From Clostridia bacterium (lineage in GTDB: Bacteria; Bacillota; Clostridia; Acetivibrionales; DSM-27016), in the NCBI GenBank assembly GCA_026414765.1, contig JAOAIJ010000022.1:62001-126000 (forward strand): 64,000 bases of DNA, in the 5' to 3' direction. The notes under the pieces are model-generated. The model saw only the letters and a list, made by a program, of their open reading frames with translations, was not told where the DNA came from and made no database searches. Positions 22,304-44,047 of the stretch are shown piece after piece; the first letter of the stretch is position 1, and every line of letters begins with the position of its first letter. The translations under genes and the position numbers were made by a program.

Positions 22304-23074
22304 TTAATCATGCAATATGCTTTTGTGCCGGGCAAGTTTTCCCCTCAGCCTCAATATTGCTTTAGTGTGAAGCTGGGAAATCCTTGATTCCGACACTTTC
22401 ATTATCGCACTTATTTCTTTTAGTGTCAATTCTTCAAAATAATACAAGGAAACAACAGTTTTTTCTTTTTCCGGCAATCTGTCTATGGAATCTGCCAAAA
22501 TATCTTTTATTTCAGAAAATTCAGCATAATTTTCCGGCCTGTCATCCTTATTTGCATTCGGAACATCTACCCCGATTTCATAATTCTGCTCTAAAAACTC
22601 TTCAAGGGAAACCATCGAGGAAACATTGACATCGTTTAAGAGTTTGTTCAGTTCATCAGTCGTTATGCCAAGCTTATCAGCTATCTCCTTATCTGAAGCA
22701 GAGTGTCCCAACTCATTTTCCAGTTCCCAATAAACCCTTTCCAGTTCCTTGCTCTTTTGCCGCAAAGATCTAGGAACCCAATCCATTTCCCTAATACTGT
22801 CAATTATTGAACCTCTTATTCGAAGAGATGCATATGTCTCAAATTTAACGCCTTTACTTATATCAAACTTATCTATGGCATCAATCAAACCAAAAACTCC
22901 AAAACCAACAAGATCATCGTACTCAACGTTAGAGCCGAAGTAAATGTTTAATCTTCCTGCAATAAACTTAATAAGGTGGGCATATTCAAGTATTAATTTC
23001 TCCCTTATAGCAGGATCTTTTGTATCGCTATATTGTTTCCACAAATCCAGCTGTTTGTTATTAGCAGATGACAT
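22304..23074 (-). CDS. sigD: Flagellar/motility RNA polymerase sigma factor SigD (FliA)
   Basis: A 256-residue sigma-28 family factor. Region 2 (about 20-95) contains VEYDDLVGFGVFGLIDAIDKF and ETYASLRIRGSIIDSIRE, each described within limits. Region 3 starts at VPRSLRQKS (near 101-109). Region 4 (about 195-250) ends with the HTH LTLKEISAIMKVSESRISQLH. It directs transcription of late flagellar, chemotaxis and autolysin genes. The ATG at 23074 has GGGGGA upstream, better than the earlier ATG in the frame. Its place near the end of the cluster matches Bacillus, where position affects the amount made. A candidate SigD promoter lies upstream of flgE, so it may boost its own synthesis. Confidence 0.96.
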   Translation of the reverse strand: MSSANNKQLDLWKQYSDTKDPAIREKLILEYAHLIKFIAGRLNIYFGSNVEYDDLVGFGVFGLIDAIDKFDISKGVKFETYASLRIRGSIIDSIREMDWVPRSLRQKSKELERVYWELENELGHSASDKEIADKLGITTDELNKLLNDVNVSSMVSLEEFLEQNYEIGVDVPNANKDDRPENYAEFSEIKDILADSIDRLPEKEKTVVSLYYFEELTLKEISAIMKVSESRISQLHTKAILRLRGKLARHKSILHD

Positions 23075-23177
23075 TAAAATCCCCCAATACATGAACTCTT
23101 ATTTTAGATTTCAGAGTCCGTTTTTCATTTGTATGTGTTTATTTAGAAATTTATAGAAGCTTATCTAGTCACTATAC

Positions 23178-23570: not shown

Positions 23571-23798
23571 ATCGGTTCCCTTTCCCTCTGTAAAAAACAC
23601 GGTATTAGAATTATTATTTGAGTACTCTGCTAAATCTGATAAATAATATTCTATCATCTAAATCAAGTAATTATTTATATTAATAACCACAACTCTTTTC
23701 TTAATAAATAAAACATGGTTCAGATGACAAAACATTATTAATATCCTCAGTCGCTACCAGCATAAATAAAGCAATCAGAAGTTTAATAAACCAGTACA

Positions 23799-24904: not shown

Positions 24905-24972
24905 ATTCTCCTCCATGAAAATCACCACTGATGATTTTCAAAACATTTCGGAATAAGAACTTCAGTGTATAA

Positions 24973-25419
24973 TCAATCTTCAAATTTCACCAGTTTTTCT
25001 ATATTGAGCAAAGTTACTATGCGGTCATCAACTTTGCCTACCCCCAGAAGATAATCCAATGATAAATCATTGCTGAAGTGAGTAATGTTTTCTATTGAGT
25101 CCTCTGTCAATTGAAGAACCTCTGCAACGCTATCTACTATTATTCCTATAAATATATCTTCAAGTTTAATAATTATTATCCTGGTTTCTTCAGTATCCTC
25201 AACAGTTGGGAGGTTGAATCTCTTTCTGAGATCCATAATAGGTATTATATCTCCTCTTAAATTTATTACACCTTTTATAAAATCAGGGGTCTTTGGTACT
25301 CTCGTAATATGCTTAACCTGCTCTATTGTAGTTACTTTCTGAATATCAACGCCATATTCTTCCTGCCCTAGCCTGAAAACTACAAATTGCTTAGTATCCG
25401 ATACAGTATTTGCTTCCAT
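24973..25419 (-). CDS. cheW: Chemotaxis coupling protein CheW
   Basis: A 148-residue single CheW domain. It contains the family's QFVVFRLGQEEYGVDI strand pair and the VINLRGDIIPIMDLRKRF motif (about 67-84). It links CheA to chemoreceptors in the membrane-associated signalling array. GGGAGGT precedes the ATG, and the gap from cheA is 15 bases. Confidence 0.96.
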   Translation of the reverse strand: MEANTVSDTKQFVVFRLGQEEYGVDIQKVTTIEQVKHITRVPKTPDFIKGVINLRGDIIPIMDLRKRFNLPTVEDTEETRIIIIKLEDIFIGIIVDSVAEVLQLTEDSIENITHFSNDLSLDYLLGVGKVDDRIVTLLNIEKLVKFED

Positions 25420-25434
25420 ATTCTTACCTCCCTA

Positions 25435-28583: not shown

Positions 28584-28587
28584 ATGT

Positions 28588-29286
28588 TTAGATCAACCCT
28601 TTTTTTCTTAGTTTTCGTTGCTCTACAAAAATAAATTTTATTATAGCTTCCCTATCCTTGTTATCTATCTTCCTGAAAAGAATTCCTATCTCATAACAGT
28701 GTCTGTCGGTATCTTCAAGCTTTATTACCCTTACTATAGTTCCGAAAAAGTTTCTTACATCATCTTCTGCCAATGTCAGTTCTATTTCCAGAATCTTATT
28801 CATTTCTAGCTTTTCTTCTGTAACAAAACATAACCCGCCGCCGCTTATATCCCTTGTATATGTCTTTTTATATTGAATCCCTTTATTATGCTCACTAATA
28901 AATGAAACTGCTTGTCTGTACTTTATCGGAATTGAGCATTCAAACCGGAAAAATTGCCGTCTTTGTATCTTTTCAATTTCGCTTAATATTTCAACTTCTA
29001 ATACTGCTATGTTATCAATTGTCTTTCTACCCAACACTTCTGCCCTGAATTTATACATTTCTATCCTGCCTGAATCCTCATACTTTCGTGTAAAGTACAC
29101 TTCCATATAAGTACCAATAGGAACGGGATATATGATACCTTCATATATTGGAGCCGCTATCACAGCTATATTTTCATCTTCAACCCATTCAAGCTCACTT
29201 ACGAAGGTGGGCTTTATTGTTTTCCCTTCATTGTCATAGAGTTCCAGTTCCAGTTTGTTTCCTATAGTCAATTCAGTAAGCTTCAT
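28588..29286 (-). CDS. PilZ-domain flagellar brake protein (YcgR type)
   Basis: 232 residues. An N-terminal YcgR-like beta domain (about 1-105) is followed by a PilZ domain (about 108-225). The c-di-GMP-binding set is present: RRQFFRF (RxxxR) near 110-116 and RDISGGGL (D/NxSxxG) near 147-154. Bound to c-di-GMP, such proteins slow or stop the flagellar motor. It lies between flhG and cheB, the usual clostridial place. Confidence 0.92.
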   Translation of the reverse strand: MKLTELTIGNKLELELYDNEGKTIKPTFVSELEWVEDENIAVIAAPIYEGIIYPVPIGTYMEVYFTRKYEDSGRIEMYKFRAEVLGRKTIDNIAVLEVEILSEIEKIQRRQFFRFECSIPIKYRQAVSFISEHNKGIQYKKTYTRDISGGGLCFVTEEKLEMNKILEIELTLAEDDVRNFFGTIVRVIKLEDTDRHCYEIGILFRKIDNKDREAIIKFIFVEQRKLRKKGLI

Positions 29287-29331
29287 TTATAACACACCCT
29301 GATTCCCAATACTGTATTTTCACTCTCTATC

Positions 29332-30243
29332 CTATGAATTAAGGAAGTTGACAAGCCTGCTGACAAATCCTTTTATACCGATTGTACCATTATCTTCTTT
29401 TTTCTCCCTGTCTTCCCCCAATTTCCTCGACAAGTCTCTTACAGACCTTGAAGCCTGACTTTTCGGAAAGTTTATCATGAATGGCTGCTGTAGTTTTACA
29501 GCCTTAATAACCATTTCATCCTGCAGTATATATCCCAGCGGGTTAAGTCTCAGTGATAAGAATTTTTCAGCTACAAGTGACAGTTTGCTCAGTATATCAT
29601 TTGCTTCAGCCTGACTTTCTGCGCGGTTGACAACTACTCTGATAATCTTTTCCTTGTCCCTGTTTGATACCATCTTTATTAAAGCGTATGCATCGGTGAT
29701 CGACGTAGGTTCAGGAGTAGTTACAAGAAGAACCTCGTCGGCTGCCATTACAAAGCTCATAACGTTGTCGGAAAGACCTGCTCCCGTATCAATCAGTATA
29801 ATATCTGCAAGTTTATCCAATAATGCTATATTTTCTATAAATCTGTCCAACTGCTTCTTTTCTATCTGGACAAGTTCCTCTACTCCCGAACCCCCAGAAA
29901 TAAACTTTATGTTTTTAGGCCCATCACACAAAACCTCCAGTATGTTTTTCCTATTGTGTATAACGTCAACCAGAGTATGTTGAGGAATAATGCCAAACAA
30001 AACATCAATATTTGCCAATCCGAAGTCAGCATCAAGTATAACCACCCTGTATCCTATCTCACTTAAGGCAATAGCCAGGTTTATGGTCAGATTCGTTTTT
30101 CCGACTCCACCCTTGCCGCTGGTTACTGTTATTACTTTTGCAGACTTCTTTTTGAAGTTCTCCAGCAGGTTAGCCTGATTTGCAGCTTGTCTGGCCTTAA
30201 GGTTTTCAATTATTTGCCTTAATTTATCTGCCTGATCCCTCAT
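29332..30243 (-). CDS. flhG: Flagellum-number ATPase FlhG (MinD/ParA family)
   Basis: 303 residues. The deviant Walker A motif SGKGGVGKTNLTINLA (about 42-57) is followed by VILDADFGLANIDVLFG and a C-terminal amphipathic helix for membrane binding. The N-terminal DQADKLRQIIENLKARQ stretch carries the DQAxxLR motif that activates the FlhF GTPase. It controls number and placement of flagella. The start codon abuts the flhF stop. Confidence 0.96.
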   Translation of the reverse strand: MRDQADKLRQIIENLKARQAANQANLLENFKKKSAKVITVTSGKGGVGKTNLTINLAIALSEIGYRVVILDADFGLANIDVLFGIIPQHTLVDVIHNRKNILEVLCDGPKNIKFISGGSGVEELVQIEKKQLDRFIENIALLDKLADIILIDTGAGLSDNVMSFVMAADEVLLVTTPEPTSITDAYALIKMVSNRDKEKIIRVVVNRAESQAEANDILSKLSLVAEKFLSLRLNPLGYILQDEMVIKAVKLQQPFMINFPKSQASRSVRDLSRKLGEDREKKEDNGTIGIKGFVSRLVNFLNS

Positions 30244-31473
30244 TTAAGATATGCTCCCCAATAATAGTTTTGTTATCTTTTCGGTGTTTGCAACTTCAAT
30301 ATCGTCAGGCACACTTTGACCGGTTGTTACATAAGATAGTTCTTTGTTTGTCCATAGTTTTGAGTTCAGTATCACTCCAGCTACCGGGGCTTCATCCAAT
30401 TTCGTAAATATTAATTTGTAATCTTTGAGAAAACTATAGTTGTTTATTATTTCTTTACAGTTGCTGTTGCTTGTCGTAGCACTCAATACCAGATAAATCT
30501 CATTTGCTTCGGAAGCTGCGACTAAAGTTTTCAACTCTTCAAACTGTGATTTGTTTCTATGGCTTCTCCCTGCTGTATCTATAAGTATTATGTCCTTATT
30601 TGAAAATGCGCTTATTGCATCACTTATTTCATTTATAGAATATATTACTGTTGCAGGCATACCCAAAATCTCTGCATAGGTTTTTAGTTGTTCTACTGCT
30701 GCTATTCTATAAGTATCGGCGGTTATAAGACCTACTTCCTTTTTCTGGTTTAATGAATAGTTGGCTGCAATCTTTGCAAGTGTAGTTGTTTTTCCTACCC
30801 CTGTAGGACCTACAAATATAACTATAGTCGGCTTCCCATCCTCTCTGAGCTTAATGGTATCCGGCTTACCTAATGCACCTGAAATAATGTTAAATAAAAG
30901 AGACGCCGTTTCATTAACACTCGCATTGGAGCCTACCTTTTCCTTAACTATGTTAATAAACTTTTTTGCATGTTCTGCATCCACTTCATTCTTTACAAGA
31001 TTATTATAAAACAACTGAAGTACATTCGGCATTGAAGGCTTTTTTTCCTCTACATCTTGCTGCTTTTCAGCCTTTTGTGCCATTGGCTGCATCTGTTCGT
31101 ATATTTTTTTCAGCAAAGATTCCATACTATTTACTTTATTCTCTAATTCCGAAATTTTTTCCTCTTTTTTGTCGAAATTATTTTTTTCTTCTGCTTTCTC
31201 TGTCAGGACATTGGTAACGACAGGTTTCTGTATTTCACCTGCATTCTTTGGCGCAGACCTGCCGGCAGCCGCATCTTTCTGAAGTGATTCCTTTTTGCCA
31301 TAGTCCTCATCAATAGCTGCTAACACTTCTATCATTGGCTTGGAAAATATGTTAAGTATCCCTTTCTTTCTGACTTTTCTTGTATTAAGAATAATTGCTT
31401 CGTTTCCCAAATCCATTTTAACTTTTAGTATTGCTTCCTGGGTATTGTTTCCCAGATAACGCCTTATTTTCAT
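30244..31473 (-). CDS. flhF: Flagellar SRP-like GTPase FlhF
   Basis: 409 residues. A basic N-terminal B domain (about 1-130) leads to the NG domain, with the P-loop FVGPTGVGKTTTLAKIA (about 223-239), DTYR, the DTAGRS switch and TKLDEA base-specificity motif. It places the flagellar base at the membrane and is switched by FlhG. It starts two bases after the flhA stop. A long charged linker rich in Glu and Lys separates the two domains. Confidence 0.97.
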   Translation of the reverse strand: MKIRRYLGNNTQEAILKVKMDLGNEAIILNTRKVRKKGILNIFSKPMIEVLAAIDEDYGKKESLQKDAAAGRSAPKNAGEIQKPVVTNVLTEKAEEKNNFDKKEEKISELENKVNSMESLLKKIYEQMQPMAQKAEKQQDVEEKKPSMPNVLQLFYNNLVKNEVDAEHAKKFINIVKEKVGSNASVNETASLLFNIISGALGKPDTIKLREDGKPTIVIFVGPTGVGKTTTLAKIAANYSLNQKKEVGLITADTYRIAAVEQLKTYAEILGMPATVIYSINEISDAISAFSNKDIILIDTAGRSHRNKSQFEELKTLVAASEANEIYLVLSATTSNSNCKEIINNYSFLKDYKLIFTKLDEAPVAGVILNSKLWTNKELSYVTTGQSVPDDIEVANTEKITKLLLGSIS

Positions 31474-31475
31474 CT

Positions 31476-33500
31476 TTAGACATTCACCATCCCTACTGAT
31501 TGAACTTCTATATTAGGGTCAAGTTCATTATATGATAATACTATAAGTCCTGGCATAACCTGTTCTGTAAGCCTCTTAAAGTAAAGCCTTACAACCGGAG
31601 AAGCAAGAATTACAGGCTGTTGGCCTAATTGAAGGAGTCTTTGCACCTGTTTTGACAAATTATTCACTATACTGTTTGTCGTACCGGGATCAAGGTTCAG
31701 ATAAGATCCATGCTCAGTTCTCTGCAGCGAGTCCATTATCATCTGCTCAAGCTGCGGGTCTAATGTTATTACATTTGATTTGCTGTCGGTTATAAATTTC
31801 TTTGAAATAGCTCTTCCGAGAGCCTGTCTTACGTATTCTGTCAGCATATCCGCATCATGAGTTATCGGAGCATAATCCGCCAGCGTTTCAAGTATTGTTA
31901 CCATATCACGTATGGAGACACCTTCCTTTAAGAGATTTGCCAGTACTTTTTGTATTTCTCCTATGGTCATGATCTTAGGAATCAGCTCGTCTACTATAGC
32001 AGGATAATTCTGCTTGATATTATCTATCAGTTTCTGAACTTCTTGTCTTCCTGTAAGTTCATGCGCATACTTCTTCACAATTTCCGTTAAATGTGTCGCA
32101 ATTATAGACGGTGCATCTACAACTGTATATCCATACATTTCTGCCCTGTCTCTCTGATTTTCATTTATCCATATGGCAGGCAGTCCGAATGCAGGCTCAG
32201 TAGTCTTTATTCCATCGAGTTCTTCCTCAGCCATTCCGGGATTCATTGCAAGGAAATGATCTATCATTATTTCACCTTTTGATACTTCAACACCTTTGAT
32301 TTTGATAATATATTCGTTTGGACTCAACTGAATATTATCTCTCAATCTTATTATAGGAACAATCATTCCAAGTTCCAGTGCAAGCTGCCTTCTGATCATT
32401 ACAACTCTGTCAAGCAGATCCCCTCCCTGGTTGACATCTGCCAGCGGTATAATACCATAGCCGAACTCAAGTTCAATTGGGTCAACCTGCAACAACGAAA
32501 CTACATTTTCTGGCTTTCTTATATCTTCAACTTCACTTTCCTGTATCTGTACCTCTTCCTGCATAATAGCTTCTTTTTCTTGATTTTTCAATCTAACACC
32601 GACAATAGCCAGTATTACTGCAACTATCAAAAAAGGCACTGTCGGTAAGAAAAATGACAGGATGACACAGGTTCCTGAAGCTACAAACATAACCTTTTTG
32701 TTATAAAACATTTGCTTCAGTATATCCTGACTCATTTCGGCATCTGAACCCGCTCTGGTCACGATAATACTTGTCGCTGTAGATATCATAACTGCCGGTA
32801 TCTGACTCACGAGGCCATCACCTATTGTCAATATAGTAAATGTAGATAGGGCTTCCATAGCTTCCATCTCCATAAACACCATACCCATTATGAAACCACC
32901 GATAATATTAATGACTGTTATCAAAATACCTGCTATAGCATCGTTTTTTACAAACTTGCTGGCACCATCCACTGCTCCATAAAAATCTGCTTCCCTCTGA
33001 ATATTTCTCCTTCTTTCCTTTGCTTCAGTCTCGTTAATCAGTCCTGAATTCAAATCTGCGTCAATTGCCATCTGTTTACCAGGCATAGCATCAAGGGTAA
33101 ATCTTGCAGCAACTTCGGCAACTCTCTCAGAACCCCTTGTAATTACCAAAAAGTTTACAATCATTATTATGAGGAACATAACAAAACCTACAACTATGTT
33201 TCCTCCTGCTACGAAATTTCCGAAGCCGGCAATTATATCCCCAGCTTCTCCAGTTGAAAGTATAAGCCTCATCGCAGTTATATTCAGTGTAAGCCTGTAT
33301 AAAGTAGTAACAACAAGCAGCGAAGGAAAAGATGAAAGTTCTAAAGCACTCTTTAGATATACCGTATTAAGCATTAAAATAAGCGTAATTGCTATGTTTA
33401 TTACAAGAAGAAAATCCAGAACAAATTCGGGTATAGGAACAATGATAGCCAGTATTATAGTTACAAGTATTGCTGGAACTGCATAATTCCCAAGCCTCAT
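31476..33500 (-). CDS. flhA: Flagellar export gate protein FlhA
   Basis: 674 residues. Eight membrane helices occupy about 1-305, with the FHIPEP-family signature (here around MAIDADLNSGLINETEAKERR, given by limits near 150-170) and the cytoplasmic loop RRNIQREADFYG. The C-terminal cytoplasmic platform (about 340-674) docks chaperone-substrate complexes. The ATG at 33500 has GGGGGAAG upstream; an earlier in-frame codon at 33515 overlaps it. Confidence 0.97.
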   Translation of the reverse strand: MRLGNYAVPAILVTIILAIIVPIPEFVLDFLLVINIAITLILMLNTVYLKSALELSSFPSLLVVTTLYRLTLNITAMRLILSTGEAGDIIAGFGNFVAGGNIVVGFVMFLIIMIVNFLVITRGSERVAEVAARFTLDAMPGKQMAIDADLNSGLINETEAKERRRNIQREADFYGAVDGASKFVKNDAIAGILITVINIIGGFIMGMVFMEMEAMEALSTFTILTIGDGLVSQIPAVMISTATSIIVTRAGSDAEMSQDILKQMFYNKKVMFVASGTCVILSFFLPTVPFLIVAVILAIVGVRLKNQEKEAIMQEEVQIQESEVEDIRKPENVVSLLQVDPIELEFGYGIIPLADVNQGGDLLDRVVMIRRQLALELGMIVPIIRLRDNIQLSPNEYIIKIKGVEVSKGEIMIDHFLAMNPGMAEEELDGIKTTEPAFGLPAIWINENQRDRAEMYGYTVVDAPSIIATHLTEIVKKYAHELTGRQEVQKLIDNIKQNYPAIVDELIPKIMTIGEIQKVLANLLKEGVSIRDMVTILETLADYAPITHDADMLTEYVRQALGRAISKKFITDSKSNVITLDPQLEQMIMDSLQRTEHGSYLNLDPGTTNSIVNNLSKQVQRLLQLGQQPVILASPVVRLYFKRLTEQVMPGLIVLSYNELDPNIEVQSVGMVNV

Positions 33501-33524
33501 TTGACTTCCCCCCATCTTTAGTAA

Positions 33525-34709
33525 TTACACTGCTCTTTCTTTTCCCTTCATGCTATAAACGAATGCCAATACCTCTGCAACAGCTTGATATAAATCTGCG
33601 GGTATGGACTGCCCGATTTCTACCGTTTCAAAAAGATTTCTTGCCAATGGCTTGTTTTCAACAATTTCTATATTGTTTTCCTTGGCTACTTCCTTAATCC
33701 TCTGAGCTATAAAATCTTGCCCCTTTGCGATTACTACAGGAGCATCGGATATTGCCGCATCATACTTTATCGCAACAGCAAAGTGTGTAGGATTTGTAAT
33801 TACTACATCAGCCTGCGGCACTTGCTGCATCATTCTCCTCATCGAAATCTGCCTTTGTTTCTGTTTTATTTTAGCCTTTACTTCCGGATTACCTTCGACC
33901 TGTTTATACTCCTCTTTTACTTCCTGCTTGGTCATCCTTAAACTTTTCTCATACTCCCACCACTGATATGCGTAGTCAAATATACCCAGTATTATAAGAG
34001 CTACACATATTCTTATGGCAACATTTATTGATGTAGTTCCAATATAGATAGCTATGTTCATAGGCTCCATATTCATTGTATTTATAACATTTCTTTCCTC
34101 ACCTTTCAGATATGAATATGCTATATAGCCTATAACAGCAATTTTAAATATCGACTTTATTAGTTCCGCTACAGAACGCATTGAAAAAATTCTTTTTAGT
34201 CCGCTCAGTGGGTTTATTCTGCTAAATTTAAAGCCAAGAGTTTCCATTGTAAACAAAAAACCAACCTGAGCATATCCTGCGATTAATCCAGTTACTAAAG
34301 CTATAGCAAAAATTGGAGCTGTTGTCTTTAAAAATACCGTCATTCCCTCAATGAATAGCTTGGCCAATACATTAACCGTAAACAAATCGTCAATCTTCGG
34401 ATATTCAGAAAAGACCCTTTTCATATAAACCGTCATTTCCTCATAAATGTTCTTTCCAAATATCCTCAGTCCAATAAATACAAAAATAAGGACAACTGCA
34501 GTTGTAATCTCCCTGCTTTGTAAGACCTGTCCCTTTTTTCTTGCATCCTGCTTTTTTTTGGGTGTAGCTTTTTCAGTCTTACCGTCAGCTGCAAATAACT
34601 GGAGGTTGATCCTAATATTTAAATTCAAATTCTTTATATTTGAAATATTTCCTTTTTCTAGCCCCAAACATCCAGCCTCCACTTCCAATACCCGGTCACT
34701 GAATTCCAT
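33525..34709 (-). CDS. flhB: Flagellar export switch protein FlhB
   Basis: 394 residues. Four membrane helices and the autocleaved NPTH motif, in VVITNPTHFAVAIKYD (about 302-317), mark FlhB, which switches export from hook to filament substrates. About 30 residues precede the usual LQLFAADGKTEKATPKKKQDARKKGQV-type start (described by its limits at about 37-63), so the N-terminus is longer than normal. I see no good internal start, hence the first ATG, four bases after the fliR stop, is kept. The next gene downstream is flhA. Confidence 0.96.
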   Translation of the reverse strand: MEFSDRVLEVEAGCLGLEKGNISNIKNLNLNIRINLQLFAADGKTEKATPKKKQDARKKGQVLQSREITTAVVLIFVFIGLRIFGKNIYEEMTVYMKRVFSEYPKIDDLFTVNVLAKLFIEGMTVFLKTTAPIFAIALVTGLIAGYAQVGFLFTMETLGFKFSRINPLSGLKRIFSMRSVAELIKSIFKIAVIGYIAYSYLKGEERNVINTMNMEPMNIAIYIGTTSINVAIRICVALIILGIFDYAYQWWEYEKSLRMTKQEVKEEYKQVEGNPEVKAKIKQKQRQISMRRMMQQVPQADVVITNPTHFAVAIKYDAAISDAPVVIAKGQDFIAQRIKEVAKENNIEIVENKPLARNLFETVEIGQSIPADLYQAVAEVLAFVYSMKGKERAV

Positions 34710-34712
34710 GTG

Positions 34713-35498
34713 TTACTTTCCCATATGCTTCATGAAGTTAAACATCTCTCCATTCATTCCATTAACCAACACTTCGATAAAAGCAACAAATGCAGGAATA
34801 GTAACTATCATAATCAAAAGACCAAGTATGATCTTTAATGGCATACCTACAACAAACACGTTTAGCTGAGGTACTGTTTTTGAAATAACGCCTAATGCAA
34901 TATCCGTAATCAGTATTGCAGCCAGAATCGGTGCGCTTATCCTAAAACCCAGGACAAAGGCTTCAGAAAAAATCCTTATTACATCATTTAGCAAAGCTTC
35001 ACTAAAAACAGCCCCCCCCAAGGGAACATATTCATAACTATCAAATAAAGCTTTTATTAATGCATGATGTCCGTTTAGCATCAGAAACACTAACATACTT
35101 ATTATTGAGTAAAAGTTTGATGTTATGGGAATCTGTATATTGCTAACAGGGTCAAGTACGTTTACCATACCAAAGCCTACCTGCATATCAATAAGCTGTC
35201 CGGCAATATATATCGCAGTAAAAATCAAGTACGAAATATATCCTAGTGTAATACCTACCATAAACTCTTTAAAGACTAGCAGGAGAAAGCCATATATATT
35301 ATCAAATTGCGAAGGTTTTTGCAAAGAAACATTACTAACAAGAATTATTGCTAGAAAAAATGCAAACCCTATCTTCAAGTAGGTAGGAACATTTCTTCTC
35401 CCAAATATCGGTGCTATTACGAATAACCCTGTCATCCTCACAAAAACAAGTAAAAACGAATCAAAGCCACTTAAGAATAAATCAACCGGAATAAACAA
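34713..35498 (-). CDS. fliR: Flagellar export protein FliR
   Basis: 261 residues with six hydrophobic helices and the FliR pattern FVRMTGLFVIAPIFGRRNVP near 19-38. It forms the export gate core with FliP and FliQ. The start appears to be TTG, with GGAGGGG eight bases upstream. The adjacent fliR-fliQ gap is 95 bases and of odd composition, unlike the tight spacing elsewhere. Confidence 0.95.
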   Translation of the reverse strand: MFIPVDLFLSGFDSFLLVFVRMTGLFVIAPIFGRRNVPTYLKIGFAFFLAIILVSNVSLQKPSQFDNIYGFLLLVFKEFMVGITLGYISYLIFTAIYIAGQLIDMQVGFGMVNVLDPVSNIQIPITSNFYSIISMLVFLMLNGHHALIKALFDSYEYVPLGGAVFSEALLNDVIRIFSEAFVLGFRISAPILAAILITDIALGVISKTVPQLNVFVVGMPLKIILGLLIMIVTIPAFVAFIEVLVNGMNGEMFNFMKHMGK

Positions 35499-35593
35499 TA
35501 GTGACTCCCCTCCAAAACTGTAGGGTCATCGGCTTTGGGCTATAGACTGTGGGCAATAGGTATACCTGCTGCCTAGCTCCTGCGGCCAGCGCC

Positions 35594-35863
35594 TTAGTGT
35601 ATATAGTTATTTATATTTAAATATAAATCTTGTGTGTATTCTATCAGTACTCGTAGCATCCATGACCCAAATAATGATATTGCTGCAATAACAGCTAATA
35701 TTTTAGGTATAAACGTAAGAGTTTGTTCCTGTATCTGTGTAGTCGCTTGAAAAATGCTTATAGCTATTCCCACTATCAGGCTTAATCCTAACATAGGAGC
35801 AGAAACTAATAGAACTATATTAAGAGCTTTTTGTGCCAGTGATATTATCATCCCCTGGTCCAT
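35594..35863 (-). CDS. fliQ: Flagellar export protein FliQ
   Basis: 89 residues, two membrane helices, and the family pattern LIVGIAISIFQATTQIQEQTL (given by its limits near 25-45). It builds the export channel with FliP and FliR. GGGGGGAAG precedes the ATG, 15 bases after fliP. Confidence 0.96.
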   Translation of the reverse strand: MDQGMIISLAQKALNIVLLVSAPMLGLSLIVGIAISIFQATTQIQEQTLTFIPKILAVIAAISLFGSWMLRVLIEYTQDLYLNINNYIH

Positions 35864-35878
35864 GTTTCTTCCCCCCTG

Positions 35879-36655
35879 TTACATAGTGAAACTTCCTACA
35901 ATTGACTGTATTACCAGTCCCCAGCCGCCAACCATAATAAAAAGTAGTATCTTAAAAGGTAATGATATCATTACCGGTGGAAGCATCATCATTCCCATTG
36001 ACATCAGTGTACTTGATACAACAAGGTCTATTATGAGAAAAGGTATGAATATTAAGAATCCAAATTTAAAAGCTACAGTCAGCTCATTCACCAAAAAAGC
36101 CGGCACTACTACAGTTAAAGGTAATTCATCAGGTTTCACCGGTGATTTGATTTTAGCCAGATTCATAAATAATTTAAGGTCCTTTTCATTACTTTTCCTC
36201 ATTTGTTTCAGCATAAAGGTTTTAATAACCTTTGATGACTTGTCTATCGCTTGCTGCTGACTTATTTGCCCCTTTGTATATGGTTGGAATGCTTCATTGT
36301 TTATTTGAGTTCCCACAGGGGCCATAATAAAGAAGGTTAAAAACAAAGCTAGCCCAATCAAAACTTGATTCGGCGGCATCTGCTGAGTTCCCAGTGCATT
36401 CCTTAAAAAGGAAAGTATTATGATAATCCTTGTAAAACAGGTCATCATAATCAGAATCGACGGAGCAATCGATAAAACTGTAAGCATAAGCAGAATTTGT
36501 ACACTTGTAGATACATCTTTTGGGTTTTGTGATGGTTCTATATCAAACCCGAATTTAAAAGAAGGAACTGTTGTGTCTGCATAAGAGACGGATGTAAAAA
36601 TTATTAAGATAATGCTAATAATTAGAATCTGAAGGTATATCCTCCTATTTTTCAT
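35879..36655 (-). CDS. fliP: Flagellar export protein FliP
   Basis: About 258 residues. A cleavable signal peptide (MKNRR, a hydrophobic core and SYA near 26) is followed by the FliP core with FTRIIIILSFLRNALGTQQMPPNQVLIGLALFLTFF, described by its limits at about 76-111, and four membrane helices. It nucleates the export channel. The frame reaches 36673; the ATG at 36655 is preferred because it gives a typical basic n-region, and GGGGATGA lies upstream. The start overlaps the end of fliO by 11 bases. Confidence 0.95.
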   Translation of the reverse strand: MKNRRIYLQILIISIILIIFTSVSYADTTVPSFKFGFDIEPSQNPKDVSTSVQILLMLTVLSIAPSILIMMTCFTRIIIILSFLRNALGTQQMPPNQVLIGLALFLTFFIMAPVGTQINNEAFQPYTKGQISQQQAIDKSSKVIKTFMLKQMRKSNEKDLKLFMNLAKIKSPVKPDELPLTVVVPAFLVNELTVAFKFGFLIFIPFLIIDLVVSSTLMSMGMMMLPPVMISLPFKILLFIMVGGWGLVIQSIVGSFTM

Positions 36656-37172
36656 TTGTACCGTCATCCCCATCTATTTTACCTTGTTTATACATTAGAT
36701 TGGTCATAGACCTTAATCTGTCAAGGTTTGATTTGAAAGTTTCTCCTTCTATCGGACTGGCTATATCTTCATCACTTTCACTTTGCTTTTTGCTATTTCT
36801 ATTTTCAGATCTTCCTGTCTGAGTCTTCTCAGTCTTTTTTTCTTTATACGCTTGTATATATTTATCGAATAATGCCTTGAAATCAAAGACATTACTGGTG
36901 TTGGTCTGTGTTTCATCTTCTTCGTAGTTGTCTAAAGTAACAGTTGTCAAAAACTCAACGGTTTTTCCGGCAGTTGCTATTAACACAAACTGATTATCCA
37001 CTTTCAGAAGATGAATCTGCTTATCAAGCCCCAGACTAACTGTTTCAACTATATTTATATACTGCCCCTTCATAGCTCTTTTGGTCTTACCTGCTAAAAG
37101 CCTGGTAAATATTACTGCAAGAAATAAAATAGATCCAAACGCTAATAGGACACCGACAACCTGAAAAAACAT
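36645..37172 (-). CDS. fliO: Flagellar biosynthesis protein FliO
   Basis: 175 residues. One N-terminal membrane helix (about 2-25) is followed by the small FliO beta domain (about 35-90, VETVSLGLDKQIHLLKVDNQFVLI in two halves). A long charged C-terminal tail completes it. FliO assists assembly of the FliP ring. Placed between cheY and fliP, as expected. Confidence 0.92.
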   Translation of the reverse strand: MFFQVVGVLLAFGSILFLAVIFTRLLAGKTKRAMKGQYINIVETVSLGLDKQIHLLKVDNQFVLIATAGKTVEFLTTVTLDNYEEDETQTNTSNVFDFKALFDKYIQAYKEKKTEKTQTGRSENRNSKKQSESDEDIASPIEGETFKSNLDRLRSMTNLMYKQGKIDGDDGTNEK

Positions 37173-37183
37173 TATTTACCCTC

Positions 37184-37546
37184 TTATCCTAGTACTTTTT
37201 TAACTGCTTCTACTACCCTTTCAGCCTGGAAGGGCTTTACTATAAAATCCCTTGCTCCAGCCTGAATGGATTCTATAACCATAGCCTGCTGTCCCATAGC
37301 TGAACACATAATAATTTTAGCGTCTGCATTAATCTTCTTTATTTCCTTGACAGCTTGTATGCCATCTACTTCAGGCATTGTAATGTCCATAATAACCAGA
37401 TCGGGAATCAGGTCTTTGTACTGTTGTATTGCTCTTCCTCCGTTTTCTGCTTCTCCGCATACCTCATATCCGTTTTTACCCAGGATATCTCTGATCATCA
37501 TTCTCATAAAAGCAGCATCATCAACTATTAGAATTCTTTTCCCCAT
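37184..37546 (-). CDS. cheY: Chemotaxis response regulator CheY
   Basis: A 120-residue stand-alone receiver domain with acidic pair D9/D10, phospho-acceptor D54 in MDITMPEVDG, the conserved Ser in IIMCSAMGQQ and Lys in FIVKPF near 104. CheY-P binds FliM and FliY at the switch. AAGGAGAGG precedes the ATG. Confidence 0.97.
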   Translation of the reverse strand: MGKRILIVDDAAFMRMMIRDILGKNGYEVCGEAENGGRAIQQYKDLIPDLVIMDITMPEVDGIQAVKEIKKINADAKIIMCSAMGQQAMVIESIQAGARDFIVKPFQAERVVEAVKKVLG

Positions 37547-37656
37547 TACGTATCCCTCTCCTTAAATTATAGTTTATCTAAATTGTGTTTCTATGGTCTA
37601 CAATCATAAATCAATCAATGAGTTTATGTATTTCTGTTTGTTTTCCACACCTTTAA

Positions 37657-38859
37657 CTAGAGCCTTTTTGAAGGATGAATAATATCAGTTATCCTTACAC
37701 CAAAACTTTCGTCTATAACTACAACTTCACCCTTTGCAATTGCTTTTCCATTTACCAGTATGTCTACAGGCTCGCCTGCCAGTTTGTCAAGCTCTATTAT
37801 TGATCCCGGTCCAAACTCAAGTATATCTTTAATCAATTTATTTGTTCTACCAAGTTCAACTGTCACCTGTAACGGAACATCCATTATAAGACTGATGTTC
37901 TTCTTTTCAATGGAAATCCTGCTGTCATCAAAAGCTTGAAATTGTGCCGGCTGAACATTAACCGGTCCCCTGCTTCTGGGTTGTTCATAATACATAGTTC
38001 CTTGTTCATTATATCCGCCATAGCCCTGTTGGGGTGGCATCTGGGGCTGCCCATACTGTGGTTCCTGGTAATAACCGTTTTGCTGTGCCGGTGTTTGGTG
38101 TTGTTCCATTTGAGGATATCCGGGCTGAGGCTGTGAAGACGCCATACGCTGTGGTGGTGCAGGTTCAGGTGCAGGGCTTTCTATATCTACATTCAGCAGG
38201 TTATCTACCAGATCTTTTGCAAACTTTATAGGGATAAGCTGCATAATTTCACTATCTATGAGGCTCCCTACTTCCATTTTGAAAGCTATTTTTACTAGCT
38301 TTTGGCTAGTATCAAAATCAATATACGGTTGAGCAGAATCAAACTGCATCACAAAAGCTTTTGGAGGTGATATATCAATGCGTTTGTCAAACATTGATGA
38401 CATAGAGGTTGCGGAAGACCCTACCATCTGGTTCATTGCCTCACTGATTGCACTCAAATGCAAATCTGTCAGATCACCTGAAGTATTGTTTCCTTCCCCA
38501 CCCATCATTAAATCGGTAATTACCTTTACGTCTGCTTCCCTCATTATTAGAAGGTTACTACCAACCAGTCCATGAGTATATTCTACTCTTACAGCCACAT
38601 ATTGTGAACCGTATTGCTTTGCCATTTCATCCCATGAAGTTATTGTTACCTTAGGTGTGGTTATAAGCACCTTATGACCAAGCAACGTGAATAAAGTAGT
38701 TGCAGAAGTCCCCATGCTTATATTTCCGATTTCTCCAAGGGCATCGACTTCCTGTGTTGAAAGATCCTCTCCTTCATTTGTCATGGCACTGTCACTGCTG
38801 CTTATAGAGGTTCCGTTTAGTAAAGCATCTATTTCAGCTTGTGAAAGCATATCACCCAT
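37657..38859 (-). CDS. fliY: Flagellar switch phosphatase FliY (FliN plus CheC-like)
   Basis: 400 residues. A CheY-P-binding N-terminal peptide (LSQAEIDALLNG, 5-16) is followed by a CheC-like phosphatase domain (about 30-225) with EIGNISMGTSATTLF and LSAISEAMNQMVGSSATSM. A Gln/Pro-rich linker (about 232-305) leads to the C-terminal FliN/SpoA domain (about 320-400). It is part of the motor switch and lowers CheY-P near it. The ATG starts immediately after the fliM stop. Confidence 0.96.
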   Translation of the reverse strand: MGDMLSQAEIDALLNGTSISSSDSAMTNEGEDLSTQEVDALGEIGNISMGTSATTLFTLLGHKVLITTPKVTITSWDEMAKQYGSQYVAVRVEYTHGLVGSNLLIMREADVKVITDLMMGGEGNNTSGDLTDLHLSAISEAMNQMVGSSATSMSSMFDKRIDISPPKAFVMQFDSAQPYIDFDTSQKLVKIAFKMEVGSLIDSEIMQLIPIKFAKDLVDNLLNVDIESPAPEPAPPQRMASSQPQPGYPQMEQHQTPAQQNGYYQEPQYGQPQMPPQQGYGGYNEQGTMYYEQPRSRGPVNVQPAQFQAFDDSRISIEKKNISLIMDVPLQVTVELGRTNKLIKDILEFGPGSIIELDKLAGEPVDILVNGKAIAKGEVVVIDESFGVRITDIIHPSKRL

Positions 38860-39846
38860 TTACTCGTCCTCCCTTCTCACAACTTCAGTAATCTTTACAG
38901 ACACCTTGTTCTTTTTTACACCAGGCTTAGCATAGAACTTTAGCAAATCTCCCACCATTATTTCAAGTTCTCCGTTTACACTGGTATCCAGCGGCATTAC
39001 GTCACCGGGCTGTAGTTCTATAAAATCATTTACATTGATTATTGTTTTTCCTAAAATCGCTCTTACAGGAACTTTTGTATTTTCGATTTTTATCTCTATA
39101 GTATCTTTTGTTTCTCTTGTTACTTCCTTTTCTATCGTGGAAAACCAAAATCTTGTACTTAGTTTAGGAACTATAGGCTCTACAACCATGTGGGGTATAC
39201 AGATATTTATCATACCTTCAACCTCTCCTACTCTGGCATTGAAGGTAACCAACGCGACCATTTCATTTGGTGAAATAATCTGTGCAAACTGTGCATTGGT
39301 TTCTATCTTTTCCAGTCTAGGTCTGATTGCAATTACATTTTCCCAGGGTTCTCGCATCAGATTCAGTATTTGTATGACAATACGCTCTATGATTGCCAGT
39401 TCTATTTCAGTAAAACCCCTAACCTTGTCAATCATAGTTCCCTTGCCACCCAAAATCCTGTCTACCAAAGCATATGCAATAGCGGGCGATATTTCAAATA
39501 TTATTGATCCAGTGAGTGGGGTAAAATCTACTACTGCTAAAACTACCGGGTTTGATATGGAGTTGTTGAATTCATAATATGATACTGCCTCAACATTCGC
39601 AACCTCAACCTGTACAAGTGTCCTAAGATATCCCGATAGGAAGTTGGTTATCAAACGTGCATAAGTATCATTAATTATCTGCAGAGTTTTAATATGATCC
39701 TTTGCAAACTTGCTCGGTCTTCTGAAGTCATGGCTTCTGACTTTCTTTTCCTGAGTCGTGGTTTGCATCTGCTGAACATCAATTTCTCCGGTATTCAGGG
39801 CTTTTAGGAGCTCATCTATCTCATTTTGTGACAGTATATCCCCCAT
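38860..39846 (-). CDS. fliM: Flagellar motor switch protein FliM
   Basis: 328 residues. The N-terminal CheY-binding motif ILSQNEIDELLKAL (4-17) is followed by a middle CheC-like domain (about 45-240) lacking phosphatase residues and a C-terminal SpoA domain (about 250-325). It forms the C-ring wall between FliG and FliY. The gene starts eleven bases after fliL with GGGG upstream. Confidence 0.96.
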   Translation of the reverse strand: MGDILSQNEIDELLKALNTGEIDVQQMQTTTQEKKVRSHDFRRPSKFAKDHIKTLQIINDTYARLITNFLSGYLRTLVQVEVANVEAVSYYEFNNSISNPVVLAVVDFTPLTGSIIFEISPAIAYALVDRILGGKGTMIDKVRGFTEIELAIIERIVIQILNLMREPWENVIAIRPRLEKIETNAQFAQIISPNEMVALVTFNARVGEVEGMINICIPHMVVEPIVPKLSTRFWFSTIEKEVTRETKDTIEIKIENTKVPVRAILGKTIINVNDFIELQPGDVMPLDTSVNGELEIMVGDLLKFYAKPGVKKNKVSVKITEVVRREDE

Positions 39847-39857
39847 CTAAACACCCC

Positions 39858-40388
39858 CTAGGAATAAAACCATTTTTCAAATGTAATCTCGTATATTATA
39901 TCCTTTTTATCTTCTTCATTCTCGTTGATAAGCTCGTTTATGGCTTTCTTCAACTCCTCAGCAGCTTTTTTCTTTGCATCAGGCTGCTTTACTTCCTCCA
40001 GTGTCCTGTTCATGAAGTATGTACCTATCAGCTCTTTTATCTTTTTTTGATAAGCTTGCACTTTGAGAGCTGTATCCTTGATGCTGCTTCCCTTAGGAGC
40101 CTTCTTAAAATACTCAAGTTCAATACTCACCTGAATTACAGGTAATACACCGGAATCCTTATTTTCATTTTTGAGATTAAATAACTCAGGTTTGCCTTCT
40201 TCAAATACTGTTAAAGAAACCAGGTCTTCGTCTTTTGGCACTTCAATGTGAGCTTTCTCAACAACTTTTTCAGTAGTTTTGGAGCCTCCACCTAAAAAGA
40301 CATAACCTGCCAATGCAGCAAGGGTTAGAGTAAGAAATGCGACTATAAGTAAAAGGACTATATTAAAAAAGCTTCCTTTGCCCTCCAA
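39858..40388 (-). CDS. fliL: Flagellar basal-body protein FliL
   Basis: 176 residues with a membrane helix (about 9-31) and a periplasm-side FliL domain (about 50-176), ending DIIYEITFEKWFYS. It associates with the stator around the motor. The start is TTG, with AAAGGGGG upstream. The gene is set 540 bases from flgE. Confidence 0.92.
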   Translation of the reverse strand: MEGKGSFFNIVLLLIVAFLTLTLAALAGYVFLGGGSKTTEKVVEKAHIEVPKDEDLVSLTVFEEGKPELFNLKNENKDSGVLPVIQVSIELEYFKKAPKGSSIKDTALKVQAYQKKIKELIGTYFMNRTLEEVKQPDAKKKAAEELKKAINELINENEEDKKDIIYEITFEKWFYS

Positions 40389-40928
40389 TGTTTATGCCCC
40401 CTTTATCTTTTGCGTAAATAAAACAAGTAATCCTTTGTAATACTATATCTATCTGATTAATTAAAGAGCACTTTTATAAATATCTATTTTAAAAACTCCG
40501 TCTATATTCTATCATTAACCAACATATTTCTTCAATACTTTACACCTTACAAAATATATACCGTTATTGTTGTTTTTATCAAAAACTACTAAAAAAAGCC
40601 TTTATAATTTATAAATGGTATGTTTTCTACATCATGTCCACGTATTTATAAGGACAAACCTCACCCATTTAACTTTATTAATCTAATGATAATATTTTTA
40701 CTATAAAAACTCAATAGAAATTTTCTAAATCACCCTAAAATATGTGCATTTTAGCTAAAATGTACTAATTATTTACATTATCACAAGTAAGTTAATGCTA
40801 CATGCTATTTACGTTTAAGCTGGAGAAAATATATTACTTTGCGCAATTATTCAACCAATATAATTTTGCCGTAGGCTGCAGTATTTATTTGCCTGCAACC
40901 TACGGCCATATCTTACTTCATCTCAATA
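40389..40928. other. Intergenic region between flgE and fliL
   Basis: A very AT-rich 540-base gap in an otherwise tightly packed cluster. flbD, motA and motB, often found here in clostridia, are absent. One strong hairpin lies next to the flgE stop: 14-bp arms at 40868-40881 and 40893-40906 with one G-U on the transcribed strand and an 11-base loop, but no U-tract. A possible fliL promoter was looked for and not identified. Confidence 0.6.
40868..40906 (-). repeat. Strong hairpin after flgE without a U-tract
   Basis: Arms of 14 bases (GCCGTAGG...CTGCAG type) with one G-U pair and an 11-base loop. The following bases on the minus strand are AAAATTATATT, so classical intrinsic termination is not expected. 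It may protect an mRNA end or act as a processing barrier. Confidence 0.6.
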
Positions 40929-42254
40929 TTACCTCTTCAAATTTACCAGTTCCTGAAGCATTTCATCAGAGGTGGTAATTATTCTGCTGTTAGCCTGAAA
41001 ACCCCTTTGTGTAACTATCATATCTGTAAATTCCTTAGATAAATCAACATTTGACATTTCCAGTGTACCGGGATTCATCATACCCACACCCTCAGAACCT
41101 GCCTTTAACCCTTTTTTGAAATCACCTGAGTTAGTTGTCGGTATAAATAAGTTGTCGCCTACCTTCTGCAAGCCTGCCGGGTTTTCAAAACTTGCAAGGG
41201 CTACCATTCCCAATGGCTGCTGCTGGCCGTTACTGTATATTCCGGTCAGTACCCCATCCGCTCCTATATTAAAGGTAACCAGATTACCCGTCGGATATCC
41301 GTCAATGTTAGTAGGTTTTGCGGAACTGTCTGCAGCATACATTGTAAGCTTTGTAAAATCAAGTGTTACCGGGAAATCGCTCGCCCCAACTGACGATGCA
41401 GGGCTAAATGTTACAGAAGGTGTATTGCCTGAACCTACTATGATTTTTCCTTCTGTATCAAATTGTATTGTACCTGTTGAACCTGATGTACTAGGTCCTG
41501 ATCCGGTATCTATTGACCAATTCCAATTTGTAATTCCACCTGAACCACCGGTCGAACTAACTTTCCAAAATTTTACATTTACTTTATAATCATTTCCAAG
41601 AGAGTCATATATAGTCATAGGAACAGAAAATTGTGCATCTGCTACTGTAGCAGATGCTCCCAAAGCGGATGCTCCTGCGTTCAGATTACCTGCAAAAACT
41701 GCATTTGCTGTAGCTTTTGCAGCTATCATTCTTTTGTTTTTATTGTATTTATCTGAGTAAAGGTTTATAGGCTCTATTGTTTTTTCTGTATTATATTCAT
41801 ATGAGCCATCAGTATTTCTTGTATATTCCTGCCATCCAAGAACATTCATACCGTTACCGGTTACCAGATTACCAAGCTTATCTACACCAAAGTTACCTGC
41901 CCTAGTAAATCTGTATGTGTCGCCTGATCCGCCTTGTACTACAAAAAAGCCTTCACCTTCAATTGAAAGGTCGGTAGGGTTATCTGTCCTCTGCAAACTT
42001 CCTCTTGTTACTATAGTATCGACCGCACCTACACCGATACCGAGACCAACCTGCATCGGATTCTGACCACCCCTGCCTGTAGCCTGGTCTGGAGCTCCTG
42101 CACCCTTTAGGGTCTGGTTGAATACTTCTTGAAAGGTTACTCTACCTGATTTAAATCCAACTGTGTTAACATTGGCAACGTTATTACCTATGACATCCAT
42201 TCTTGTCTGATGTGCTCTTAATCCTGACACACCAGAGAACATAGATCTCATCAT
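40929..42254 (-). CDS. flgE: Flagellar hook protein FlgE
   Basis: 441 residues. The N-terminal rod-like D0 region reads MRSMFSGVSGLRAHQTRMDVIG (given by its limits near 2-23). Hook domains with Gly/Ser-rich loops follow. The C-terminal D0 helix reads VDLSKEFTDMIVTQRGFQANSR. It polymerises into the hook. The ATG pair is preceded by a strong AAGGAGG. A SigD-type promoter lies about 100 bases upstream, giving a structured leader of about 90 bases. Confidence 0.96.
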   Translation of the reverse strand: MMRSMFSGVSGLRAHQTRMDVIGNNVANVNTVGFKSGRVTFQEVFNQTLKGAGAPDQATGRGGQNPMQVGLGIGVGAVDTIVTRGSLQRTDNPTDLSIEGEGFFVVQGGSGDTYRFTRAGNFGVDKLGNLVTGNGMNVLGWQEYTRNTDGSYEYNTEKTIEPINLYSDKYNKNKRMIAAKATANAVFAGNLNAGASALGASATVADAQFSVPMTIYDSLGNDYKVNVKFWKVSSTGGSGGITNWNWSIDTGSGPSTSGSTGTIQFDTEGKIIVGSGNTPSVTFSPASSVGASDFPVTLDFTKLTMYAADSSAKPTNIDGYPTGNLVTFNIGADGVLTGIYSNGQQQPLGMVALASFENPAGLQKVGDNLFIPTTNSGDFKKGLKAGSEGVGMMNPGTLEMSNVDLSKEFTDMIVTQRGFQANSRIITTSDEMLQELVNLKR

Positions 42255-42352
42255 AAAGATACGACCTCCTTCGTTTTCTATTCCTTCTGTCAGTCCGGAA
42301 TAGGTAGCCTCCCGAAAGGGTCCGGCTACAGTCTTTTCTATGACTAATTAGT

Positions 42353-42379
42353 ATATCGACATAATTTTACATAATCTTA
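42353..42379 (-). promoter_or_regulatory. Candidate sigma-D (sigma-28) promoter upstream of flgE
   Basis: On the minus strand TAAG, exactly 15 bases and then GTCGATAT. The consensus is TAAA-N15-GCCGATAT, so 10 of 12 positions match with ideal spacing. It sits in the only sizeable gap before flgE. The predicted start is near 42345. Confidence 0.65.
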
Positions 42380-42397
42380 ATAGAATTCTCAGCTTCC

Positions 42398-42784
42398 TCA
42401 GCCGAATACTGCCCCATCAATATTGGTAAACACATTCTCTTTCAGTTCGTTGCTGTTTACTGCGGTAATAACTGTCCTATTCTTCACGTTTACAACAAAT
42501 GCAATATTATCAACTACTACAAGAGATTCCTTAACCCCTTTTGCTTCTGCTTTGTCAACAGCACTTCCAATTTTCTCCTTCTGTACATCTGTCAGATTTA
42601 TATTTCTTGCCTGCAGTCTCATCTCGGCGTGCTTGGAAAACTTAACACCTGGATTCTGACTCATTTTATCCTGGAGAATCTTTCCAAAATCTCCTGTATG
42701 CTGACTTGGCTTTTGTACTGCAGGAGTTAAAGGGGAATTTTGAATTCTACCTATATTGTTCATGAACTTATTGTTCACAACCAT
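42398..42784 (-). CDS. Flagellar operon protein (TIGR02530 family)
   Basis: 128 residues. It contains the family core FSKHAEMRLQARNINLT and the VVDNIAFVVNVKNRTVITAV strands (about 50-115). The family is found only between flgD and flgE in Firmicutes flagellar clusters; its role is not established, but a hook-assembly function is inferred. GGGAGGAG precedes the ATG at 42784; the upstream codon in frame is not used. Confidence 0.9.
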   Translation of the reverse strand: MVVNNKFMNNIGRIQNSPLTPAVQKPSQHTGDFGKILQDKMSQNPGVKFSKHAEMRLQARNINLTDVQKEKIGSAVDKAEAKGVKESLVVVDNIAFVVNVKNRTVITAVNSNELKENVFTNIDGAVFG

Positions 42785-42802
42785 AAAAACTCCTCCCACA
42801 TT

Positions 42803-44047
42803 TTATGTCCCGGACGGCTTAACATTTGTTATGCTGTCTACCGGAACATCAACCTGGTTAATAACTGCCTTTATTTTTCCTCCAACCGTTTCATAACTTC
42901 CCAACTTACCTTTAACCGTTACTTTTTGTCCGGTAACAGGATCTTTTATTACCAGTGATACTTCACCTGCACCATTTTTATGCTGTTCAAGGTAATTATT
43001 AATATAGCCCGGATCTGTTGATCTTGTTCCGTCTGCTATTTCCACTACCTCAGCATTTATACCGTCCATTACAGCATAATCTTCATATACACCGGCTTTT
43101 ATTGAAGAAACTACTCCATTTACACCAACGATATTTTCCCGCTTCTGGTCATGTACACTTCCTGATGCATTGTAGCCTATAAGATTAGTATAAGTTGATA
43201 TATTCGGTCTTTGAGTTCTGCTGATATTTGATACACTTGTCAAAGGTACCCCTAACTGATCAAGAGTAGCCTTTATCCTGCCTGAAGCATCTATTGTATA
43301 ATCTTTCAGTACCCCGCTGACAGCAACCCTTTTATCAGTATTTCTGTCTACGATTTCTATTGTAACTACCTTGCCTTTATTCATTGCGAGATACTCTTTC
43401 ATGTAATTTGAGTCAGCAGACGTTTCCCCTCCTGGAGTAATTATCTGGGATACATCAACATTTACACCGTCCATAACTGCATAATCTTCATAAACACCCT
43501 TTTGCAGCGACTTAATTATGCCGTTAACCATTACAATATCTCCCGTTTCAGGATCATATACAGCTCCCCCGGCTTCTGATCCAATCAGACTAGTGTGATT
43601 AGATAGATTTGATTCTGAAGCTCCATATCCTTCTGTAACGTCAGAAATCCGCTCAATCGGGATATCCTTGCCTTTTACTACTACATAGACCTTGCCATGA
43701 TCAACCTTTACACTTGTTACATCGCCTTCTATAGGTTTGGATTCTTTTGTGACATCATCCACAAGACTAGCAGTTACACGTTTGCCTATCAGACTGAATG
43801 CTTGTGACTGTGACAAGCTGCTGTTCATATTCTGCATTTGCTCAAGAGAACTGAACTGAGCCATTTGTGCAACAAATTCCTTATCGTCTACAGGTTTCAA
43901 AGGATCCTGGTATCTCAGCTGAGTAACCAGGAGATTCAGAAAATCATCCTTCCCAAGCGTACCGGTATTTCGGTCACTGGTTTTCTTTGCACTGTCATCG
44001 ATTATTTGTTGTATTGTTTTTTGGTTACCTACACTGTTTACTGCCAC
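42803..44047 (-). CDS. flgD: Hook-capping protein FlgD with extra tandem C-terminal repeats
   Basis: 414 residues, about twice the normal family length. The cap N-terminus (about 30-80, DDFLNLLVTQLRYQDPLKP and EFVAQMAQFSSLEQMQNM) and one FlgD beta domain (about 85-138) are canonical. Residues 153-287 and 288-414 are a tandem duplicate with an offset of 135 residues. LIGS at 154 matches LIGY at 289, VNG matches at 174/309, and GVYEDYAVMDG matches at 184/319. FlgD caps the growing hook, and the added domains may enlarge the cap. The start is GTG, with GGGGG upstream. Confidence 0.93.
   Translation of the reverse strand: MAVNSVGNQKTIQQIIDDSAKKTSDRNTGTLGKDDFLNLLVTQLRYQDPLKPVDDKEFVAQMAQFSSLEQMQNMNSSLSQSQAFSLIGKRVTASLVDDVTKESKPIEGDVTSVKVDHGKVYVVVKGKDIPIERISDVTEGYGASESNLSNHTSLIGSEAGGAVYDPETGDIVMVNGIIKSLQKGVYEDYAVMDGVNVDVSQIITPGGETSADSNYMKEYLAMNKGKVVTIEIVDRNTDKRVAVSGVLKDYTIDASGRIKATLDQLGVPLTSVSNISRTQRPNISTYTNLIGYNASGSVHDQKRENIVGVNGVVSSIKAGVYEDYAVMDGINAEVVEIADGTRSTDPGYINNYLEQHKNGAGEVSLVIKDPVTGQKVTVKGKLGSYETVGGKIKAVINQVDVPVDSITNVKPSGT

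Follow-up and report, generated by a model that had tools for sequence, protein, structure and literature searches.

Across flagellated genomes, a short RNA element found before hook (flgE) and distal-rod (flgG) genes of many Clostridia tracks the protein family TIGR02530. Judged by sequence comparison, the element is a structured RNA with covarying helices and a fixed gene context in the loci read, and its cis-regulatory role is putative. The copy described here lies in a Clostridia flagellar cluster within a 64,000-nucleotide stretch of DNA (the window), where a working SigD promoter very probably precedes flgE at 42353-42379; a transcript started there by SigD would carry the whole RNA element (Table 1). 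We consider that the leader RNA and its candidate protein partner matter more than the promoter itself. An earlier note on this DNA, which described the promoter, overlooked the conserved RNA directly downstream of it.

Table 1. Coordinates of the features discussed (positions in the window).
Feature	Position	Strand	Basis
SigD-type -35 box, TAAG	42376..42379	-	sequence; TAAG also in own flagellin promoter
SigD-type -10 box, GTCGATAT, 15 nt from the -35 box	42353..42360	-	sequence and conservation pattern
Expected transcription start, about 7 nt past the -10 box, near 42346	42344..42348	-	inferred from sigma-28 promoter geometry
Two-hairpin leader RNA, ~55 nt	42274..42331	-	model R1 match, E 8.4e-17
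Hairpin P1: UAGCC [GGA] CCC - loop UUUC - GGG [A] GGCUA	42305..42328	-	
Hairpin P2: CUAUUCC - loop GGACUGACAGAA - GGAAUAG	42278..42303	-	
flgE Shine-Dalgarno, AGGAGG	42265..42270	-	sequence
TIGR02530 (flg_new) gene, just upstream of the flgE gap; proposed RNA partner	42398..42784	-	NCBIfam
flgE, hook protein	40929..42254	-	NCBIfam
Perfect 14-bp hairpin directly 3' of flgE, no U-run, z -5.2	40868..40906	-	
sigD, FliA/WhiG family sigma factor	22304..23092	-	NCBIfam

The element was first seen as a near-identical block that follows a spacer in the leaders of flgE relatives. Hairpin P1 has an internal loop that keeps GGA in one strand and mostly has A in the opposite strand, and its GGACC stretch is invariant in an alignment of 46 distinct cores (A1); in P2 the stem sequence is free and the pairing kept, and the 12-nt GA-rich loop is conserved. 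In A1, composed of 43 of the 55 unique cores plus L029, L032 and L039, 97.5% of 690 cells were paired, changes were found on both sides in 12 of 15 pairs, and the covariation score was 0.604, compared with 0.215 for shuffles and no more than 0.139 after sliding. Twelve cores were left out of A1 (L024, L025, L027, L030, L031, L051, L057, L061, L064, L073, L077 and L078), some being near-duplicates and L061, L064, L077 and L078 having a long P1 loop. A second alignment of 47 distinct rows found by the model (A2), which is fitted to the model and includes one match in a coding stretch (L130), was 96.3% paired with a covariation of 0.737 versus 0.245, and two of its five covariation measures, the number of pairs with changes (277/500) and of pair types (169/500), were not above shuffles. 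Rfam 15 held no match for the element in the window, where the sole match was a tRNA at 15614-15697; with E up to 10 the leader gave four matches to unrelated families, far below the cut-offs, and 12 other loci gave none.

In a phylum-wide sample of 398 genomes, 214 had a match to the model R1 at E <= 0.01. The element is short and easy to test. One confident copy is present in the own genome; three further matches there (E 1.4 to 7.2) were taken as chance, as were the match inside the L130 coding stretch (E 0.003) and one at L081 (E 0.18). Among 51 loci of flgE homologues on named contigs, 40 matched R1 at E <= 0.002, and at 5 of the 11 non-matching loci the flgE alignment does not start from residue 1, the leader being possibly uncovered. 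The carriers include Acetivibrio alkalicellulosi, Ruminiclostridium cellobioparum, R. hungatei, R. sufflavum and Lutispora thermophila, and further Caldicoprobacter, Tissierella simiarum, Anoxynatronum buryatiense and Clostridium hydrogenum. We read 47 distinct places (48 loci, mostly best-scoring matches together with two-match genomes, and a minority of the matches in the 214 genomes), of which 37 lie before flgE-type starts, 9 before flgG-type starts and one is cut by a contig end. Nine additional loci, chosen for a match away from TIGR02530, were all before flgG-type genes. By eye, 15 of the 18 flgG-type loci have a FlgF-like C-terminus just upstream, so placed that the element stands between flgF and flgG, the exceptions being L139, L154 and L160; the three of these 18 genes compared with NCBIfam were all FlgG. 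In seven of the eight two-match genomes read, one copy precedes flgE and the other flgG, and the genome G350 has two identical flgE copies with the element, at contig ends. At locus L118 a flgE copy (117-1563, minus strand) follows the element with no adjoining TIGR02530 gene, the TIGR02530 match of that genome being on another contig. Among the loci retrieved, L145 entered none of the counts.

Of the same 398 genomes, 280 have TIGR02530 and 335 have the FlgE/F/G family, by which a genome was counted as flagellated. All 214 genomes with R1 carry TIGR02530, as do all 45 genomes with two R1 matches, and among the 55 flagellated genomes that lack TIGR02530 none has an R1 match (Fisher p 2e-29 among the 335 flagellated genomes, shared descent ignored). 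A relaxed rescan of 40 of these 55 again gave no R1 match (0/40). Of the 66 TIGR02530-plus genomes missed at first, 40 were subjected to a looser rescan, in which 29 matched at E <= 0.1 and 25 at E <= 0.003, and 11 still had no R1 match. The same picture was obtained from the leaders: 15 of 16 flgE leaders linked to TIGR02530 have the element, compared with none of 17 TIGR02530-minus flgE leaders among the matches listed for the 55 genomes. Within the family f92 both states occur, in two genera, with and without TIGR02530 and the element. The one exception among the linked leaders, L080 (2659-3001, plus strand) from a Muiribacteriota MAG, shows a TIGR02530-like ORF before flgE and no recognisable element. 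Joint loss of neighbouring genes could account for the co-occurrence before flgE, the more so as the genomes are not independent, but the flgG copies are not adjacent to TIGR02530 and therefore joint deletion of neighbours does not explain them, an objection that concerns these non-adjacent copies only.

The TIGR02530 product is possibly of RelE/ParE-like fold, which on the models at hand is a lead and not a family assignment. The model of its conserved domain (85 residues, 38 sequences; pLDDT 88.3) consists of a strand followed by two helices and an antiparallel sheet, an arrangement like that of RelE, ParE and HigB. The 22 best VIA rows for the domain model (Z 4.9-6.2, below the tool's clear level; rmsd 2.8-4.3 over 61-77 residues), identified in part by their titles, are presumably all RelE/ParE/HigB-type proteins, pantothenate kinases came next (Z 4.9), and the full-length model again had a RelE/ParE-type protein as its best match (Z 5.9). 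Foldseek with the TIGR02530 models returned nothing at E <= 0.001. Unlike RelE, ParE and HigB, the family has a conserved place in flagellar operons, and a sequence search against solved members of the three gave no match. The residues H52, R56, K82 and T107 are invariant in the protein alignment A3, and in A4, where one row is truncated, the H and R are almost invariant; this conservation is at most suggestive of RNA cleavage or binding, and folds of the RelE/ParE type often bind or cleave RNA. Two other candidates were set aside, an ESCRT protein that alone gave weak matches in a profile search of solved structures (E 0.012-0.022) and DUF4258, with a Pfam match below the cut-off (E 0.016). 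No described role for TIGR02530, a curated family, was found in the literature searched, so that an RNA target would give it a concrete first candidate function.

Several ways in which the leader RNA could act can be weighed on 108 distinct leaders, namely those meeting the patterns of our script. A T-run follows P2 in 2 of the 108, the predicted probability that the Shine-Dalgarno sequence is unpaired is 0.44, and 0.45 once the element is shuffled (p 0.40), and the distance from element to start codon ranges from 16 to 225 nt. Neither terminator nor Shine-Dalgarno switching was thus seen across these leaders. With T-runs so scarce and Shine-Dalgarno pairing independent of the element, a riboswitch of the classical kind is disfavoured, and an RNA that is processed or bound by a protein is favoured. 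Pairing of GGACC with the GGUC that follows many Shine-Dalgarno sequences was dropped, as reading revealed leaders without GGUC. A riboswitch that binds a ligand as a motility signal would suit the compact form and the strongly conserved loops of an RNA in a 5' leader, yet no expression platform was seen, neither the c-di-GMP classes nor any other Rfam family matched, and the presence of the element follows a protein family, which makes this reading very unlikely.

We regard it as rather improbable, though less so, that the RNA acts in cis without TIGR02530, either as a signal that brings hook and rod mRNA, or the nascent protein, to the flagellar export apparatus, or by stabilising or processing the mRNA and so increasing the yield of flgE or flgG in a long operon. 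The loci read precede only two kinds of exported axial protein, and the unaffected Shine-Dalgarno pairing and the range of distances to the start codon would agree with such a signal; its confinement to TIGR02530 genomes, the non-adjacent flgG copies included, speaks against it. CsrA, which targets flagellin mRNA in other bacteria, could be proposed from the invariant GGA in P1 and from the csrA gene present in the own genome. CsrA targets have their GGA in a hairpin loop, however, and here it sits in a modelled internal loop; furthermore, csrA is unassociated with the element (181/33 vs 100/21, p 0.65) and 33 of the 214 element genomes have no csrA match. A CsrA target is therefore highly improbable, and CsrA was dropped as the partner for want of this association.

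The promoter upstream of the RNA was described in the earlier note as a SigD site, TAAG-N15-GTCGATAT on the minus strand just before flgE. Both the match (42379..42353, 10 of 12 positions, 15-nt spacing) and the place were confirmed, the site lying inside the 143-nt gap 42255-42397 that runs from TIGR02530 to flgE. It occurs exactly once in the window and has the SigD/sigma-28 form of a TAAA-like -35 box, 15-16 nt and a -10 box with CGATAT; as sigma-28 promoters start transcripts about 7 nt downstream of the -10 box, the start can be predicted. The score alone means little, since the consensus TAAA-N15-GCCGATAT with up to two mismatches has 10 sites in the window. With up to three mismatches there are 93 window sites against 75.6 expected, a number reached by 2 of 100 shuffles, and a looser SigD motif was not enriched over the whole genome (37 matches vs 63 for a reversed control). 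We therefore dropped the plain 10/12 score as promoter evidence, such sites being frequent in the window and the loose motif not enriched genome-wide.

It is the likeness to flagellin promoters and the recurrence in relatives that lift the site beyond chance. The earlier note had proposed a search upstream of flagellin, and there the own genome indeed has a like element, CTATTAAG-N15-TCCGATATA, next to which the flgE gap reads CTATTAAG-N15-GTCGATATA. The pattern of the order ([TA]AA[AG] or TTAA, 15-16 nt, NNCGATA[TA]) occurs in 27 of 28 flagellin upstream regions (30 loci from a search of 40 relatives, two of them without a usable start) compared with 2.2% of shuffled regions. Of 59 distinct flgE leaders, 8 have it within the 120 nt that precede the RNA element, the chance level in shuffles of the window's own leader being about 0.6%; the search was confined to these 120 nt, and the placement upstream of the RNA follows from that design. 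The eight leaders (own genome, G011, G033, G037, G005, G028, G019 and G054; families f1, f11, f5 and f14) are not independent, five coming from f5. In the own genome fapA also has a full-consensus site, about 65 nt upstream of its start codon (C20:6849-6875, minus strand, equal to L001 1501-1527), and the third exact consensus match of the genome is inside an ORF, by eye that of a TetR-type regulator. In the part of PMC3720852 available to us, which concerns Eubacterium and Roseburia flagellin promoters, TAAA-N15-CCGATAT is quoted as the general sigma-28 consensus. The flgE-gap site resembles these clostridial flagellin promoters in its TAAA/TAAG box, 15-16 nt and CGATAT, and differs from those described in that part of the paper (PMC3720852) by its position within the flagellar cluster, before flgE. 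That the match arose by chance and flgE is transcribed from upstream only would agree with the abundance of 10/12 matches, the lack of genome-wide enrichment and the 51 of 59 leaders without the pattern, but we hold this to be unlikely given the close likeness to the own flagellin promoter and the recurrence in four families. The claim of a SigD promoter is thus supported by its likeness to the flagellin promoters of genome and order, and the site is likely a further member of the known sigma-28 promoter class.

For the RNA and the promoter together we propose that flgE can be expressed from transcripts that read through from flagellar genes upstream and, in the lineage at hand, also from transcripts started at the SigD promoter, and that both kinds would carry the two-hairpin RNA 5' of flgE. 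The TIGR02530 protein would recognise this RNA through the GGA internal loop of P1 and the GA-rich loop of P2 and so exert post-transcriptional control over the mRNA of the hook and, in many species, also over that of the distal rod (flgG), whereby rod and hook synthesis would be tuned to flagellar assembly. We give this joint reading, with TIGR02530 acting on the leader RNA, about an even chance of being right. Use of the promoter by SigD is what we infer from the sequence, and so are the binding of the RNA by TIGR02530, the direction of control and the thing sensed. The wider proposal, in which TIGR02530 would be a RelE/ParE-fold regulator dedicated to binding or cleaving flgE and flgG leaders, and so an RNA-level checkpoint for making rod and hook across much of Clostridia, with SigD feeding the same leader from its own promoter in some lineages, is more tentative and falls somewhat short of even.

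RNA-level control of flagellin is known from the switch of CsrA, FliW and flagellin mRNA and from Caulobacter FlbT with its flagellin leader. The proposed system resembles these in that a dedicated protein would control an exported flagellar structural protein at the RNA level, and differs in its targets, hook and distal rod, in the RNA and in the candidate protein; if the proposal is true, we know of no earlier RNA checkpoint that acts on hook and distal rod, beside the known control of flagellin. A leader RNA in a clostridial flagellar operon is also described for C. difficile, where, according to the part of PMC3649979 available to us, a c-di-GMP-I riboswitch stands before flgB; the place is different from that of the present element, which has no Rfam match. 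Among the papers shown in literature listings, outside the coverage of which lay a 2017 survey of 224 candidate RNAs, none dealt with this RNA element or with TIGR02530, and a term search of PMC11109978 found no mention of flagell, flgE, flgG or hook.

The earlier note had also placed sigD about 19 kb further on, and a FliA/WhiG-family gene is indeed found on the same strand, 19.3 kb downstream. An autoregulatory loop of SigD, from the flgE-gap promoter through the operon to sigD, is possible on this arrangement; with the site retained in so few relatives (8 of 59 leaders), such a loop would be lineage-specific. In B. subtilis the fla/che operon has an internal SigD promoter, before another gene in the ylxF/fliK region; the likeness is that SigD would feed its own long operon, and the difference that the promoter here stands before flgE, upstream of a structured leader. 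The hairpin directly 3' of flgE may limit readthrough toward sigD. It is followed by an AT-rich gap of about 540 nt and then by a FliL-like gene; the gap contains no minus-strand ORF of at least 40 aa and therefore no flbD, motA or motB. Over 23000-42900 there are 70 sigma-A-like sites, about the 67.5 seen in shuffles, so that the sequence gives no indication of transcript continuity. On the minus strand, sigD is flanked by an ORF of 159 aa (23178-23657) with family matches below cut-offs and by one of 554 aa (20569-22233) with a weak MinC-like NCBIfam match.
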